Assembly: GCA_019636535.1 (NCBI GenBank)
Contig: JAHBXK010000001.1
Location: forward strand, 62,001 to 126,000
Length of the DNA: 64,000 nucleotides
Direction: 5' to 3'
From: Phycisphaeraceae bacterium
Lineage (GTDB): Bacteria; Planctomycetota; Phycisphaerae; Phycisphaerales; UBA1924
The position numbers and the translations under genes are program-made. Below, in pieces: positions 10,258 through 17,929 of the stretch (position 1 is its first letter; the number at the start of each line of letters is the position of its first letter). The notes below the pieces were generated by a model. The model did no database searches. It was not told the DNA's origin and was given only the letters and a program-made list of their open reading frames with translations.

Positions 10258-11229
10258 TCACCACGTCCCCCCCGCCGTCTCGGCCGCGACCAGTTCAAAG
10301 AACTTCGCCCGCCGATCCTCATCCAGCGCTCGGTACATCCGACCCATCAGTTCCCGCCGATGCTCCGCCCGCGGCCTTAGCCGTGATTCCCTCAGGAACT
10401 CGGCCACCGCCCCGCGAATCTCCTCCCACTGCTCGGGCGTCGGGTCCGTTGCTTCCCGCAATTTCTCCAGTTTCTCCTTGTACGGCCTGATCTGGTCGTC
10501 ATACGCCCGCCGAAGTTCCTCGGAGAAGATCGTCCGCTCCAGCCGCAAGCGCGTGCGCTCGCAGTCCGCCTCCGTCGGGTTCCGCCGCGTCCGCAACTCC
10601 CACGCCACCCACGCCTGCCAGTACTCGTTCAACATCCGCTCGAGTTCAACATACTGCTCGGGGCTCAGCACCACCGCCAACGTGAGCACCAGGTCCGACC
10701 GCCCCCAAGCCAGCGACGGGCTCCTGCTCAACTCCCACCGATCTCGAAAGAACGTCGTCAGTTCCGACGTAATCTCGCGCTCTCGCTTCTGAATCGAGTC
10801 CCCATACGCAAACGACTCATCCAGGTGGTCCGCGAGCAGCACCCCCATCGCCAGCCGCCGCTCGGCAAAAACCCCCCGGCAGTACTCGCGCGCCTGATCG
10901 TCAAGGCCCAGCAGCCCGACCGCCGACTCCTCGGGCAGACCGCTCACCCGACGAAACTCCCCGCGCGCATCGTGCCGCACGATGCTCCGACCGACACGCT
11001 CCTGCACCACCGGGCCGGAGAGCGCGGAGAACAAGTCCGCAGCCTCCGCCGAGTCCGCGCCCATCTCCGCAGCCGGCGCCGGCTCCTCCACCGGCTCCCC
11101 CATCATCTGCCCGAGCCCGCTCGGTGCGCAGCACATCCACGCAATCACGCACGCCGCCACCGGCGCAATCCGACCGCTGCATCGCATCCAGCACACCGAT
11201 TCCACACGCGAAGTTCGTCGTCGCATCAT
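10258..11229 (-). CDS. Exported hypothetical protein
   Basis: About 323 residues; no family recognised. The N-terminus is a basic leader followed by IAPVAACVIAWMCC and a cleavage-like APSGLGQ, so export is likely. The mature part is highly charged and helical, with Trp-rich patches (LNEYWQAWVAWELRTRR) and an Arg/Glu-rich C-terminus (RESRLRPRAEHRRELMGRMY). This suggests a periplasmic helical bundle. Three consecutive ATG codons (11226-11232) follow GGGAG; the middle one is given. The gene diverges from the patatin lipoprotein, sharing a 112-base promoter region. Confidence 0.65.
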   Translation of the reverse strand: MMRRRTSRVESVCWMRCSGRIAPVAACVIAWMCCAPSGLGQMMGEPVEEPAPAAEMGADSAEAADLFSALSGPVVQERVGRSIVRHDARGEFRRVSGLPEESAVGLLGLDDQAREYCRGVFAERRLAMGVLLADHLDESFAYGDSIQKREREITSELTTFFRDRWELSRSPSLAWGRSDLVLTLAVVLSPEQYVELERMLNEYWQAWVAWELRTRRNPTEADCERTRLRLERTIFSEELRRAYDDQIRPYKEKLEKLREATDPTPEQWEEIRGAVAEFLRESRLRPRAEHRRELMGRMYRALDEDRRAKFFELVAAETAGGTW

Positions 11230-11341
11230 CATCCGCTCCCACACGCGCCCACTCAACTACGCCGCCGTTACCATCCTCAAGATACCCCACCACGCCCCGC
11301 TCGCCAAGACCCTTCGCGCATTCCGTCGATACGCTTGTCGA

Positions 11342-12604
11342 ATGCTCCTCAAACGCACGCCCGCGGCGGCCGGGCTGGTCATGTCGCTCGCGCTCCTGTG
11401 CTGCTTCCTCTCGGTCGGCTGCGCGGTCCCGCGCCCAACCCTCAACCCCGAACAACTCGCGCAGGTCAAAGCCCGCTACCTCGAAGCCGCCCGGACAGAC
11501 ACACGCACCGCCAACGAGAAAATGCTCCGCCGCATGTACGCCGAGCAGTCCGCCCACCTCCTCGCGCTCGACGCCCATGCACCGCCGACCGAAGCGCTCC
11601 CAGAAGCCCCCCACCCCCACTCCACGCTCCCTCCCACCTACGACATCCTGATCCTCTCCGGCGGGGGCGACTACGGCGCCTTCGGCGCGGGATTCCTCAA
11701 GGCCTGGGGTCAGATCACCGACCCCGCCTTTGCCCGCCCCGAGTTCGACATGGTCACCGGCGTCTCCACCGGCGCGCTCATCGCGCCCTTCGCCTTCATC
11801 GGCGACGACCCCTCCTACACACAACTCATCGACCTTTACTCAACCCCAAAGGCCGATTGGTTCTCCAGCCGTGGCCCCTTCTTCTTCCTCCCCGGCAACG
11901 AATCCTTCATGGACAACCGCGGCCTCCGACGCGACCTCGAAGCCGCCGTCAACGAGTCCGTCGTCGCGCACATCGCCCGCGAGTCCCGCAACGACCGCGT
12001 CCTCGCCATCAACACCACCAATCTCGACGTCGGAGCCATGCACCCGTTCGAACTCTCCGCCGAGGCCGAGCGCGCTGAGGCCTCGGGCGACCGCAAACGA
12101 CTCCACGACATCCTCCTCGCCTCCGCCGCCATCCCCGCCGTCTTCCCACCCGTCATCATCGACGGCGCGCTCTACGTCGACGGCGGCACCACCTCCAACA
12201 TCCTCTACGGCGCCAACTGGCTCAGCCCCCGCGCGCCGCTCGCCGTTTGGCGCGAGCGCCACCCCCACCTCCCCCGACCCCGCATCCGCTTCTGGGTCAT
12301 CATCAACAACCAACTCGAATCCACCGCCCACGTCGTCCAGCCCACATGGATCAGCATCACCCGCTCCAGCGTCGCCACCACCATCCGCTCCGGCACCGCC
12401 ATCGCCCTCCGCCACCTCTACGCGCAAGTCTCCACCATGCGCGCTGAGGGCTGGGACGCCGACTTCCGCTACGTCTCCATCCCAGAGTCCTGGGTTCCAC
12501 CAAACGACCGCCCCTTCGACAAGGACGTCATGCAATCGCTCGTCAACCTCGGCCTCCGGATGGGCGCCGACCCCTCCAGTTGGCGATCCGATTTCGCCCG
12601 CTGA
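11342..12604 (+). CDS. Patatin-like phospholipase lipoprotein (copy 1)
   Basis: 420 residues. An N-terminal signal peptide ends in the lipobox LSVGC, so the enzyme should be lipid-anchored outside the cytoplasmic membrane. The patatin catalytic elements are complete: oxyanion loop SGGGDYGAFGAGF, nucleophile motif GVSTG with the catalytic Ser, and the aspartate of the dyad in YVDGGTT. Further shared blocks are ASAAIPAVFPPV and FWVIINNQ. It should hydrolyse acyl esters of phospholipids or related lipids. A paralogue lies at 60545-61774 with the same blocks in the same order. The ATG at 11342 directly begins the signal peptide. Confidence 0.88.
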   Translation: MLLKRTPAAAGLVMSLALLCCFLSVGCAVPRPTLNPEQLAQVKARYLEAARTDTRTANEKMLRRMYAEQSAHLLALDAHAPPTEALPEAPHPHSTLPPTYDILILSGGGDYGAFGAGFLKAWGQITDPAFARPEFDMVTGVSTGALIAPFAFIGDDPSYTQLIDLYSTPKADWFSSRGPFFFLPGNESFMDNRGLRRDLEAAVNESVVAHIARESRNDRVLAINTTNLDVGAMHPFELSAEAERAEASGDRKRLHDILLASAAIPAVFPPVIIDGALYVDGGTTSNILYGANWLSPRAPLAVWRERHPHLPRPRIRFWVIINNQLESTAHVVQPTWISITRSSVATTIRSGTAIALRHLYAQVSTMRAEGWDADFRYVSIPESWVPPNDRPFDKDVMQSLVNLGLRMGADPSSWRSDFAR

Positions 12605-12700: not shown

Positions 12701-13849
12701 ATGGCCAAGAAGTCCCCATCCACCGCCAAACCCTCCACGATCTCCGCGGCCAGAAAGTCGCGCGACGATCGAACCCAGAAACAAATCGCCGACCTCGCCT
12801 CGCGCGTCGCCAAGACCGCCTTCACCGGCAAGGAGCCCGTCCTCCACATCCCCACGCGCTCGCGCGCCAACACCATCTGGAACAAGCAGCGCCGAATCCT
12901 CGAAATGGGCGACGCCCGACAAGACCGCCAACTCTTCAACCTCAATCAGGCCAAGCAGTTCATGCAGACCATGCTCCACTGCTCCACCATCATGGACCTG
13001 ATCCAGGAAGGCAAGACCAGCAGCCTCCGCGGCGTGTTCTACAAGGCCAAGCACACCGTCGCCGGAACCAAGGAAAACACCTTCGACACCCAGGAGGAAT
13101 CAGACCCCATCCTCGAAGACCTCGAAGTCACCCTCGGCGCCCTCCGCGAAGAACTCCACATCTACGCCAAGAAAAAGGGCACCATGATCGGCAACATCAC
13201 GATCGTCGACAGCGGCGACGAGATCGACTGCCGAAGAATGGGCTCCGGCGGCTACGCCATCCCCTCCATCGTCGAGCCCGACGTCATCCAGTTCAAAAAG
13301 TGCGAGGCCAAGTTCGTCCTCCACGTCGAAAAGGACACCGTCTGGGGCCGTTTCAACGAGGACAGGTTCTGGCAGGAGCACAACTGCATCCTCACCGAGG
13401 GCGGCGGTCAGCCTTCACGCGGCGTCCGCCGACTCCTCCAGCGACTCAACAAGGAACTCGGCCTCCCCATCTACTGCCTGCTCGACTGCGACCCCTGGGG
13501 CCACTACATCTTCTCCGTCATCAAGCAGGGCTCCATCTCCCTCGCCTTCGAGTCCGAGCGCCTCGCCATCCCCGACGCCAAGTTCATCGGCGTCCGCGCC
13601 AAGGACTACGACGAGTGCGACCTCGGCGACGCCGTCAAGATCGATCTCTCCGATCAGGACATCAAGCGCGCCAAGGAGATCGCCGCCTACCCCTGGTTCG
13701 CCGCCCACAAAGGCTGGCAGAAGGAAATCCAGGGCATGCTCAACAACGGCTTCAAGATGGAAGTCGAAGCCATGATCAACAAGGGCATCTCCTACGTCAC
13801 CGAGGAGTACGTGCCCCAGCGCCTCCGCTCCAAAGACTGGCTGGAGTGA
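12701..13849 (+). CDS. top6A: DNA topoisomerase VI subunit A / Spo11-like protein
   Basis: 382 residues. The N-terminal 25 residues are a Lys/Ser-rich extension. The winged-helix (5Y-CAP) domain carries the catalytic Tyr114 in SSLRGVFYKAKHT. The TOPRIM domain has the metal-binding Glu210 (HVEKDTVWGRF) and Asp262/Asp264 (LLDCDPWGHY), so both active-site parts are intact. With subunit B it would form an ATP-dependent type IIB enzyme cutting both strands. No subunit B gene occurs in the window: the next gene encodes an anchored surface protein on the other strand, and the upstream one is a phospholipase. GGAG precedes the ATG. Confidence 0.9.
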   Translation: MAKKSPSTAKPSTISAARKSRDDRTQKQIADLASRVAKTAFTGKEPVLHIPTRSRANTIWNKQRRILEMGDARQDRQLFNLNQAKQFMQTMLHCSTIMDLIQEGKTSSLRGVFYKAKHTVAGTKENTFDTQEESDPILEDLEVTLGALREELHIYAKKKGTMIGNITIVDSGDEIDCRRMGSGGYAIPSIVEPDVIQFKKCEAKFVLHVEKDTVWGRFNEDRFWQEHNCILTEGGGQPSRGVRRLLQRLNKELGLPIYCLLDCDPWGHYIFSVIKQGSISLAFESERLAIPDAKFIGVRAKDYDECDLGDAVKIDLSDQDIKRAKEIAAYPWFAAHKGWQKEIQGMLNNGFKMEVEAMINKGISYVTEEYVPQRLRSKDWLE

Positions 13850-13915: not shown

Positions 13916-14728
13916 TCAGCACTCCCGCCGCCGACGACGCCCCAGCCCCACAACCCCGGCCATCGCCAGCATCGTCCCCGCCGCCGGCGCCGGAATCGCC
14001 AACCGAACCTGCAGCGTCGTTGAACCGCTCATCCCCGAGAACACGCCGCCCGGCGCACCAACAAAGTCGATGCGGTAGAACACGTCAAAGAACGAATCCA
14101 CGTGCCACATGCTCCCGGGCGCGGAGGTCAGCGTCGTCTGACCGGGCCCCGGCAGCCCGAAGTCCGACCCCATCACCACGCGGAACAGGTCAAAGTCCGG
14201 ATCGCCCGTCACCTGTCCGAAGAAACGGAACAGGTCCGTCGAGAACGACTGTACCGGCGCGAAGTTCGTCCTCGGCGCCGAGTGCATCTCCAGCGAGATC
14301 GGAACGTTCAGCGTCCTGAAGTAGCCGGCAAACACACCGGTCCCGTCAAGGTCCAGCGTCAGCACGCCGTCCGCCGCGTGCTTCTCCCCGCCCAGCACGC
14401 CCCCGGCCACGCTCTGCGTCCCCATGAACGAGTACACGCCGCCCATCGGGTTCCAGAAAAAACCGCCCAGCGCTGCATCCGCCTTCAGCGTCGATCCCAC
14501 CGGCAGGCCGTTCACCACGTTCATCTGCCCCGAAGGTGTTGCCGCCGACGGCACCGAGTAATACGTCAACCCAAACGGCGGCAGGTCCGCCGTCCCGTTC
14601 CCGTTGTCCGCAACCGTGTTCGGTCCACCCAGCGCGGCGCCCGCCATCGCACAAACCGCGCTGGCGGCGAAAAGCCCCATCGATCGCGCGCGATCCGCCC
14701 GAATTCCAAGTGAAATGTGGGTCAACAT
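13916..14728 (-). CDS. PEP-CTERM-like sorted exoprotein
   Basis: 270-residue secreted protein. The signal peptide contains SMGLFAASAVCAMAGAALGG. The middle is a beta-rich region of unknown function (FFWNPMGGVYSFMG, LTLDLDGTGVFAGYF). The C-terminus has the sorting signal PAPAAGTMLAMAGVVGLGRR followed by more Arg: a PAP variant of the PEP motif, one membrane helix and a basic tail, as handled by exosortase-type systems in planctomycetes. The start at 14728 follows the excellent site GAGGAGAGACA. Convergent with top6A. The substrate or partner is unknown. Confidence 0.85.
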   Translation of the reverse strand: MLTHISLGIRADRARSMGLFAASAVCAMAGAALGGPNTVADNGNGTADLPPFGLTYYSVPSAATPSGQMNVVNGLPVGSTLKADAALGGFFWNPMGGVYSFMGTQSVAGGVLGGEKHAADGVLTLDLDGTGVFAGYFRTLNVPISLEMHSAPRTNFAPVQSFSTDLFRFFGQVTGDPDFDLFRVVMGSDFGLPGPGQTTLTSAPGSMWHVDSFFDVFYRIDFVGAPGGVFSGMSGSTTLQVRLAIPAPAAGTMLAMAGVVGLGRRRRREC

Positions 14729-14993
14729 TGTCTCTCTCCTCGCCGCAAATCGGCTCTCGCCGCGCGGCAAACAGGGTTCCCCCTTGCCCTCCGATCCGTT
14801 CAGAGTACCCGATTCCAACGCCCCTGCAACGTCGAACTCGCAAATCGTAGCGCAAAAACCCGGGATCGCGCACACGCCCGAGAAATCCCGCGTCAATGAC
14901 GACGCACGGCATCCACCGGCCGTCAACCAGTTCAATTCGTCGCCCCACCCCGCCGCCTCCCCCACCTCGCGCTCGACACGCCCCCCACCCCCC

Positions 14994-15795: not shown

Positions 15796-16881
15796 TCAAC
15801 CGACGCCGGGAATCGTCACCGGGCCGCTCGGCGTGTTCTTGCGTCCGGGGTCGCGCTGCGGGCTCCCACCGCCGCCGCCGCCCCCGCCACCACCCTCGTC
15901 CGTCTCCTGACGGTCCGGGCTGAAGTCGACCGGCCGGTCGGGCTGAGCCATGCTCGGCCCGCCCATCATGAACCCCATCACGCCTATGCCGTCGAACGAT
16001 GCCGCCCGAGGCCGAACGTCCGCGGCCGAAGGCGCAGGCGAGAACACCCACATCTCTCCGCTCGGCGCGATCCCCCACCCTGTCAGGTACGCCCCTCGCG
16101 GATCCTGCAGCGCAATCAACACACCGCGCGATATGACCCCCGTAGGCTCGGGCGGGGGAGCCTCCGTATCGCTCAGCCCGGCCCCCTCCGAGAGCGCCTT
16201 CAACTGTTGCTCCATCATCGCCAGAAACTCCGGCGGTGTCCCAGCCGCACGCATGCTCTCGATCTGCTGCCGCATCTGCTCGCGGATCTGCTCGCGACCC
16301 TCCGGCGTGTTCATCTGCTCGAGCGCCCGCTCCAGTTCGCTCCGCATCTCCGGCGGCATCGAACCCATGATCGCAGTCAATTGGTTCTTCAGCGTCGAGA
16401 AGTCCGCCGCGCTCGGCACACCCGCAGCGCCCAGCGGAATCCCCTCACCGATGAAGATCACCCGCACCGCTTCCAGTTGCGAGGTCTGCTCCACCCACTC
16501 ATCCGTCATCGTCAGTTCCGAGAGCAGTTCCCGCCCGCGCGGATTCAGCAGCGACGACAACTTCGACGAGTCCCCCCGCGCCAGCGCATCCGCAAGGCGA
16601 ACGATCGCCTCGCCCATCGCGACCTGCTCCTGCTCAACCTGAACGCCCGACGCGAACGTCACGCGCGCATCGATCCCCAGGTCCTGCCCGATCGATTCCA
16701 GCGACACCGGCGGCGGCGGCGGCGGGGGTGGCGGTGGTGGCGGAGGCGGCGGGGGTGGCGGGGGCTTCGGGCACCCCATCATCAACAGGCAGAACAGCCC
16801 GGCGGTGGCGCCGCCGATGATCCGCCCCGCGCGCTGTGCGCCCGTCCGCCGCGTGAACTCGCTCTGTGTCAACTCAGGCAT
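15796..16881 (-). CDS. Lipoprotein with 19 consecutive prolines, inside the fab operon
   Basis: 361 residues; no known family. After a signal peptide the lipobox LLMMGC supplies the acylated Cys, followed at once by PKP and a run totalling 19 prolines, then a folded domain. Residues about 170-225 form a Met/Glu-rich helix (MRSELERALEQMNTPEGREQ). Near the C-terminus is a run of about ten glycines. The proline codons are mixed (CCG, CCC, CCA, CCT), so this is not a fresh triplet expansion. Start 16881 overlaps the fabD stop in ATGCCTGA, implying translational coupling; an in-frame ATG at 16902 is an alternative. Probably a periplasmic spacer-anchored protein. Confidence 0.8.
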   Translation of the reverse strand: MPELTQSEFTRRTGAQRAGRIIGGATAGLFCLLMMGCPKPPPPPPPPPPPPPPPPPPPVSLESIGQDLGIDARVTFASGVQVEQEQVAMGEAIVRLADALARGDSSKLSSLLNPRGRELLSELTMTDEWVEQTSQLEAVRVIFIGEGIPLGAAGVPSAADFSTLKNQLTAIMGSMPPEMRSELERALEQMNTPEGREQIREQMRQQIESMRAAGTPPEFLAMMEQQLKALSEGAGLSDTEAPPPEPTGVISRGVLIALQDPRGAYLTGWGIAPSGEMWVFSPAPSAADVRPRAASFDGIGVMGFMMGGPSMAQPDRPVDFSPDRQETDEGGGGGGGGGGSPQRDPGRKNTPSGPVTIPGVG

Positions 16882-17929
16882 GGGTGCTTTCCGGCTCGTC
16901 ATACGCGAGCACCTTCGTGGCTTTGTCGATCCGCCGCATCAGCCCGGCCAGCGTCCGCCCGGGCGCAAGTTCTACGAAATCCGCCCCACCCGCCCGACCG
17001 ACCAGCCCCCGGCAGTTCTGCTCCCATCGCACGGGCTTCGTCAATTGTTCCACCAGACGCCGCCGGATCATCCCCACCACCGCCGACGCATCCCCCGACC
17101 GATCGTGCGCTTCCCCCGTCACGTTCGACATCACGTCCACGCGCGGCGCAGACATCGGCGTCGATTCCAGTTTCTCGCCAAGCCGGTCCGCCGCGGGGCT
17201 CATCAGCGGCGAGTGAAACGCCCCAGCCACGGGCAGCGCGGTCGCACGCAAACCCATCGAACCCGCGACTTCCACCGCGCGACCGCAAGCGCCGATCGAG
17301 CCCGATACGACGATCTGACCGGGCGAGTTGAAGTTCGCGGGCACCAGCACCTCTCCCCCCCGCGAGCGATCGCACAACTCGTTCACCTGCGCCTCATCGG
17401 CGCCGATGATCGCCACCATCCCCGACCCGGCGCTCCCGTCGGGCTGCCGAATCTGGTCCGCCGCGTCCTGCATCGCTCGCCCGCGCAGCGCCACCAACTC
17501 CAGACCGTCCTCGAACGAGAACACCCCCGCGATGTGCAGCGCCGTGTACTCACCCAGCGACAGGCCAGCGGTCGCGACCACGTGCGACTCGATCGCCCCG
17601 CCACCTCCCACGCCGTTCGTTCCCCCGCCCGAGCCCCACTTCGCAAGCAGCCCGCGCCAGCAGGCCACGCCGGCCACATAGATCGCCGGCTGCGACACGT
17701 CCGTCCGATTCAGACGATCCGCGGGCCCCTCAAAGCACAGTGTGCTCAGCCGCTCACCCCCGAGCCGATCGCCCAGCAGCCGATCCGCCTTCTCAAAGAC
17801 CGTCCGCGCCTCGGTCGAGGCCCCCGCCCACGCGCGCCCCATGCCCACCGCCTGCGCACCCTGCCCGGGGCAGAGAACGATGCGGGATCGGCTCGTGTTG
17901 GATGGTCCTGGGTTCGTCATCGTCACCAT
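16874..17929 (-). CDS. fabD: Malonyl-CoA:ACP transacylase
   Basis: 351 residues. It transfers malonyl from CoA to ACP to start each round of fatty acid elongation. The N-terminal motif LCPGQGAQAVGMG is intact. The nucleophile elbow reads AGLSLGEYTAL, so the usual GHSLGE has Leu instead of His next to the catalytic Ser. The second catalytic His is in VAGAFHSPLMSPAADRL. The C-terminal ELAPGRTLAGLMRRID is standard. Start 17929 is an ATG with a second in-frame ATG at 17920; neither has a clear ribosome binding site. fabH lies 21 bases upstream, and the proline-rich lipoprotein overlaps its end. Confidence 0.95.
   Translation of the reverse strand: MVTMTNPGPSNTSRSRIVLCPGQGAQAVGMGRAWAGASTEARTVFEKADRLLGDRLGGERLSTLCFEGPADRLNRTDVSQPAIYVAGVACWRGLLAKWGSGGGTNGVGGGGAIESHVVATAGLSLGEYTALHIAGVFSFEDGLELVALRGRAMQDAADQIRQPDGSAGSGMVAIIGADEAQVNELCDRSRGGEVLVPANFNSPGQIVVSGSIGACGRAVEVAGSMGLRATALPVAGAFHSPLMSPAADRLGEKLESTPMSAPRVDVMSNVTGEAHDRSGDASAVVGMIRRRLVEQLTKPVRWEQNCRGLVGRAGGADFVELAPGRTLAGLMRRIDKATKVLAYDEPESTHA

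Follow-up and report, generated by a model that had tools for sequence, protein, structure and literature searches.

A stretch of 64,000 nt from a Phycisphaeraceae genome (the window) carries a gene for a topoisomerase VI (Topo VI) A subunit, top6A, with no subunit B gene beside it. Two questions are raised by this locus. Does the A subunit act alone, or with a B subunit encoded elsewhere? And what would such an archaeal-type enzyme do in a bacterium that has gyrase?

Domains and catalytic residues of Top6A

The ORF at 12701..13849 (+) has an ATG start and encodes 382 aa. It was identified by Pfam, NCBIfam, phmmer and AlphaFold2 (AF2) comparisons. Pfam matches were obtained to TP6A_N, Topo_VI_alpha and TOP6A-Spo11_Toprim (best E 5.8e-58), and NCBIfam NF003333 scored 525 bits against a cut-off of 465. 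A basic N-terminal tail (aa 1-29, 28% K+R; 12701..12787, +) precedes the TP6A_N winged-helix/5Y-CAP DNA-cleavage domain (aa 85-154; 12953..13162, +; PF04406, E 6e-17), the all-beta Topo_VI_alpha domain (aa 160-201; 13178..13303, +; PF20768, E 4e-9) and the Toprim domain (aa 205-375; 13313..13825, +; PF21180, TOP6A-Spo11_Toprim, E 6e-58). The catalytic tyrosine, Tyr114 (13040..13042, +), aligned with the active-site Tyr of Top6A in the phmmer comparison and was invariant in 11 and 13 aligned Top6A. The Toprim metal-site residues Glu210 (13328..13330, +) and Asp262 and Asp264 of the DxD motif (13484..13492, +) were likewise invariant in the alignments, so that all four catalytic residues named in the initial annotation were confirmed across relatives.

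The nearest solved structure by sequence was S. shibatae Top6A (2zbk_A, phmmer E 7e-84), which the window A resembled most closely (285 bits, versus 170 bits for M. mazei). The AF2 model (mean pLDDT 73.7, from an 11-row alignment) was matched by the Top6A structures of M. mazei, S. shibatae and M. jannaschii with E 2e-25 to 1e-16, while the Spo11 match was far weaker (E 6e-8). Judged from its sequence, the ORF is a genuine full-length Topo VI A subunit in which every catalytic residue is kept. The Lys-rich tail had been considered unusual; however, many planctomycete Top6A of both types described below begin with a MAKK... tail of some 10-75 residues and 20-45% K+R, whereas the tail was short or absent in the archaeal Top6A compared.

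NF003333 carries the name "DNA topoisomerase IV subunit A" for Top6A, and plasmid records copy this name. Identity with ParC was rejected for the window protein, in which PF00521 was absent and Pfam found type IIB domains only. Surveys of ParC by product name will miscount Top6A as ParC.

Location of top6B and gene linkage

The window genome (3.56 Mb, 71 contigs, 92.5% complete, 0.8% contamination) was searched with profiles, and exactly one top6A, that of the window, and one top6B were found, on different contigs. The top6B transducer match (G000:C70:43943-44428, -) lies in an 808-aa ORF with GHKL ATPase and transducer domains. This ORF scored 187 bits with PF09239 and 596 bits with NF003218 (cut-off 274), had a HATPase match, and gave phmmer scores of 423 bits with M. 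mazei Top6B and 254 bits with S. shibatae Top6B. Its residues 333-628, between the GHKL and transducer domains, aligned with structurally solved Top6B and may hold an H2TH domain. No top6B was found within the 64-kb window, in line with the initial annotation, which had allowed for a distant B subunit as a fallback; the gene on contig C70 is such a subunit. top6A lies on contig C1, 75 kb from the nearer contig end, and top6B about 43 kb from the nearer end of C70, so the two genes are more than 100 kb apart unless the assembly is wrong. A mild caution about the top6B locus is its somewhat lower GC content (63% versus 67%). Against this stand the low contamination of the assembly and the finding that, in the sets compared, the same locus (L085) was the most identical relative for both A and B.

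In close relatives the two genes are usually linked. top6B was at the same locus as top6A in 66 of 80 relatives (nearly all planctomycete MAGs, mostly Phycisphaerales), nearly always just upstream and on the same strand. The first sample of the window's family contained five further genomes with Topo VI (G002, G034, G095, G270 and G278), and in all of them A and B are adjacent. The genes were far apart on one contig in G167 and in the single-contig genomes G127 and G287. Taken at sequence level, the Topo VI of the window is a heterotetrameric enzyme of the ordinary kind with dispersed genes.

The neighbours of the window top6A are unrelated to it, as had been noted before. A patatin-like phospholipase ORF with an uncertain start lies upstream (10982..12604, +; PF01734, E 9e-25), and a short protein and then fatty-acid genes follow top6A; the downstream protein at 13916..14965 (-) has a C-terminal sorting-signal-like end. 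Neither the patatin-like ORF nor the sorting-signal-like protein was found beside top6A in the relatives searched. Six window neighbour genes were searched for near A in relatives; four gave no match and the other two gave two weak matches each, which fits relocation in the window's lineage. The gene sits on a 342-kb contig among housekeeping neighbours, and no mobile-element context was seen beside it. No match was found in the phage collection searched, and plasmid matches were to haloarchaeal Topo VI only, leaving a mobile-element or phage origin of top6A unsupported. About 18 consecutive prolines are encoded in another ORF of the window (15796-16902, -).

Co-occurrence of A and B across the phylum

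Among 294 genomes across the phylum, 127 matched PF20768 (A) and 136 matched PF09239 (B). B was present in 127/127 genomes with A, and A without B was never seen. Used as the sole A marker, PF20768 misses the window-type A in several genomes: nine genomes appeared to be B-only, and 5 of the 7 that were fetched carry an adjacent window-type A missed by this short Pfam model. The two subunits were broadly co-inherited (Mantel r 0.67 within the window's type, with 0/2000 permutations as high).

An additional Top6A-like protein, consisting of the Toprim half, was observed in three genomes of family f52 (L196:2645-3712, L197:2383-3285 and L198:2455-3816, all -) that also carry a normal top6BA pair. 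Glu and DND are kept in it and no catalytic-tyrosine domain is recognisable; it is possibly a Toprim-only paralogue.

Alternation of Topo VI with Topo IV

In the window genome GyrA, with two QxRGGKG motifs, is the sole type IIA A subunit and the only PF00521 gene, and there is one GyrB. Topo IV (ParC/ParE) was not found in it, an absence that is uncertain at 92.5% completeness. The sister family f3, which lacks Topo VI, has GyrA with ParC and GyrB with ParE; its ParC has no GyrA-box motif and is about 33% identical to GyrA. Within the order (201 genomes, at least 90% complete), none of the 33 f3 genomes has Topo VI and every one carries at least two PF00521 genes, compared with 5/163 Topo VI genomes, and some of these five look like split fragments.

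The same contrast was found across the phylum, where at least two type IIA matches were present in 17/136 Topo VI genomes versus 84/158 others (Fisher p 1e-13), counts that are not independent of one another. By family majority, the proportions were 5/52 versus 20/40 (p 3e-5). A within-family permutation gave p 0.04; without family f62 it gave p 0.002, a value of little weight because f62 was removed after the data were seen. The contrast recurs within families f19, f36 and f71, and f62 runs the opposite way. Some of the 17 Topo VI genomes with at least two type IIA matches may reflect fragments, and genomes with gyrase, Topo IV and Topo VI together may exist in the phylum.

Both Topo VI and Topo IV are missing from one genome of the window's family, G172 (98% complete), in which only GyrA was found. 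At the corresponding locus (L207, G172:C20:132000-142000) the contig is intact, other genes replace top6BA, and 80% identity is retained in the downstream flank. Topo VI is therefore dispensable in at least one lineage, and gyrase alone can suffice. Besides G172, four genomes of the order lack both Topo VI and a second type IIA enzyme.

G172 also contains about 40 copies, some 80% identical, of a stretch of roughly 160 bp (L005:916-1078). Inspection by eye suggests coding sequence for a dockerin-like calcium-binding repeat at protein C-termini, not a non-coding element.

Topo VI is described as a preferential decatenase (PMC8837201), and M. mazei Topo VI is said to complement parE-ts E. coli (unpublished, cited in PMC11302465). 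From the alternation pattern together with this published biochemistry, Topo VI is probably the decatenase of the window's lineage, in place of Topo IV. Topo VI and Topo IV mostly substituting for each other in the phylum would give an account of why some bacteria retain an archaeal-type topoisomerase.

Two types of planctomycete A subunit

The planctomycete A subunits fell into two types separated by a wide gap. Window-type proteins scored at least 386 bits against the window A, with full or nearly full matches, and the other type scored below 210. Between types, identity across families was 33.5% for A (28-39.5) and 52.1% for B; within types it was 57-63% for A and 55% for B. The A/B distance ratio was 0.76 and 0.64 within the types and 2.07 between them. 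In archaea A and B scale together (63/56% for M. mazei-Natrinema and 31/37% for S. shibatae-M. mazei), by which measure the 52% identity of planctomycete B is higher than expected from the 33% of A. Identity to M. jannaschii Top6A was 51-60% for the other type and 32-38% for the window type, and mean identity to S. shibatae A was 42% for the window type and 34.5% for the other. Accelerated evolution of A was rejected as the cause of the two types: the two types each have a nearer relative in a different archaeal A than in one another, and within types A evolves no faster than B.

The archaea sampled were S. shibatae, M. mazei and haloarchaea, with M. jannaschii for A only. With this sampling a single planctomycete A clade was rejected (dlnL 91, p-AU 6e-9). 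A grouping of all planctomycetes in the B tree is modestly supported (SH-aLRT 85), and an A-like arrangement stays acceptable under the B data (p-AU 0.26 and 0.45), a weak resolution at the deep level that is due to the very divergent S. shibatae B. Archaeal top6 sequences were sought in viral contigs and phage records and none was found; plasmids gave three haloarchaeal replicons only. On these comparisons, the two A types appear to have different archaeal relatives while B differs little, and the histories of A and B differ.

Conflict between A and B within the window's lineage

A second disagreement was found inside the window type, where no archaeal outgroup is needed. In the A tree, the f1 core and f4 (the window's core) join f71/f80 with bootstrap 100 and SH-aLRT 99, and f2 and G278 are placed apart from them. 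A data reject the order as one clade (dlnL 64, p-AU 6e-4). The B tree recovers the order as a single clade (support 100/99), and B data reject the grouping of A (dlnL 57, p-AU 2e-4). The groups for this test were picked after the first trees had been seen; still, with likelihood differences this large in both trees, chance is an unlikely cause of the conflict. The transducer match of f71/f80 Top6B is split, resembling the insertion of Pirellulales described in PMC11302465, and these families may belong to Pirellulales.

In another part of the phylum, L025 (G038, family f42) carries A and B that are 76% and 79% identical to those of the window and fall within the window's order in the A tree and the B tree alike. 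Either a recent transfer of the A/B pair or a misbinned contig would produce this.

Agreement between the A and B phylogenies had been proposed in the initial annotation as a mark of a normal Topo VI. Broad co-inheritance bears this out, but the two trees conflict at two levels; the window enzyme thus has the signs of a working Topo VI without a single shared A/B history.

Weighing the explanations

We consider it very likely that the window A is the DNA-cleaving subunit of a conventional A2B2 Topo VI whose B subunit is encoded on another contig, and that this enzyme most likely decatenates DNA. Observed are both subunits with intact motifs, their co-occurrence, gyrase with no Topo IV found, and the alternation among relatives; that A and B form a complex, carry out strand passage and act in decatenation we infer from the known Topo VI mechanism. 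An ancestral top6B-top6A pair would have been broken up in the window's lineage, leaving B on another contig. B would dimerise on ATP and capture a second duplex. Tyr114 and the Toprim metal site of A would cut the first duplex, the second duplex would pass through the cut, and A would then reseal it. In a cell with gyrase, and in which Topo IV was not found, Topo VI would most likely decatenate sister chromosomes. The initial annotation had instead proposed an orphan A subunit, possibly functioning without a partner in the manner of Spo11 or of mini-A/Topo VIII, and the missing B and unrelated neighbours in the window would suit this. The genome search it called for, however, located a complete top6B with GHKL and transducer domains, which was its own refuter and rules out an orphan. 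A without B in 0/127 genomes, the passed NCBIfam Top6A equivalog cut-off, the weak Spo11 structure match, and the lack of a mobile-element context or phage-collection match all speak against a lone nuclease, which is now highly improbable, and a false lead towards a Spo11-like bacterial A subunit is removed. An accessory Topo VI, related for example to repair or genome size, with phylogenetic inertia rather than function behind the alternation with Topo IV, seems unlikely to us. It would account for the opposite course of f62 and for the five genomes lacking both Topo VI and a second type IIA enzyme, and within the order the contrast is that of one family against others, possibly a single event. 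The repetition of the contrast within f19, f36 and f71, the within-family permutation (even with f62 kept) and the family-majority test argue for function.

A further explanation supplements the conventional A2B2 enzyme and does not exclude it. A was likely replaced at least twice independently of B, with the enzyme still A2B2: in a deep swap, A would have come from an archaeal source unlike that of other planctomycete A, and in one within the window's own lineage an A shared with f71/f80 would have joined a B native to the order. The disproportion between A and B divergence between types, the resemblance of the two A types to different archaea (M. jannaschii and S. shibatae), the rejection of one planctomycete A clade, and the mutual rejection of the A and B trees inside the window type are all expected from such replacements. 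Weighing against them, B data tolerate the deep A-like arrangement, archaeal sampling was thin, the donor archaeon may itself have held a mismatched A/B pair, and the internal test groups were selected after viewing the trees. The A/B conflict suggests that lineages can exchange the subunits of a heterotetrameric topoisomerase with function kept. The chances seem to us evenly balanced that Planctomycetota exchange Topo VI subunits as modules and that the window enzyme is a hybrid of an A and a B from different lineages, with at least two A replacements, one across a deep archaeal divergence, which took over decatenation from Topo IV.

Comparison with known systems

Topo VIII, mini-A and Spo11 share the homologous cleavage core with the window A. 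Topo VIII and mini-A are carried on mobile elements (PMC8185306). In contrast to these systems, the window A shows no fusion and no mobile-element context beside the gene, has a B subunit, and matches the Spo11 fold much more weakly than that of Top6A.

Bacterial Topo VI, including that of planctomycete families without Topo IV, is already known. Allen & Maxwell 2024 (PMC11302465) reported Planctomycetota families with Topo VI and gyrase but without Topo IV, described two bacterial clusters each for A and B, inferred two whole-enzyme transfers from 17 bacteria, and stressed that a genome with Topo VI need not lack Topo IV. In our analysis, by contrast, A and B disagree, and the alternation of Topo IV and Topo VI inside the phylum is strong, with exceptions. 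The subunit conflict and the scale of this alternation were not found in a literature search that covered few subscription papers, and no priority is claimed.

Archaeal Topo VI (S. shibatae 2zbk, M. mazei 2q2e and M. jannaschii A 1d3y) shares with the window enzyme the A domains and catalytic residues and the GHKL/transducer B, and with the window's relatives the B-then-A gene order. Unlike in archaea, the host is a bacterium with gyrase, the window A has a basic N-terminal tail, and the A and B genes are unlinked. Compared with the archaeal enzymes, the window A scores best with S. shibatae and the window B with M. mazei.
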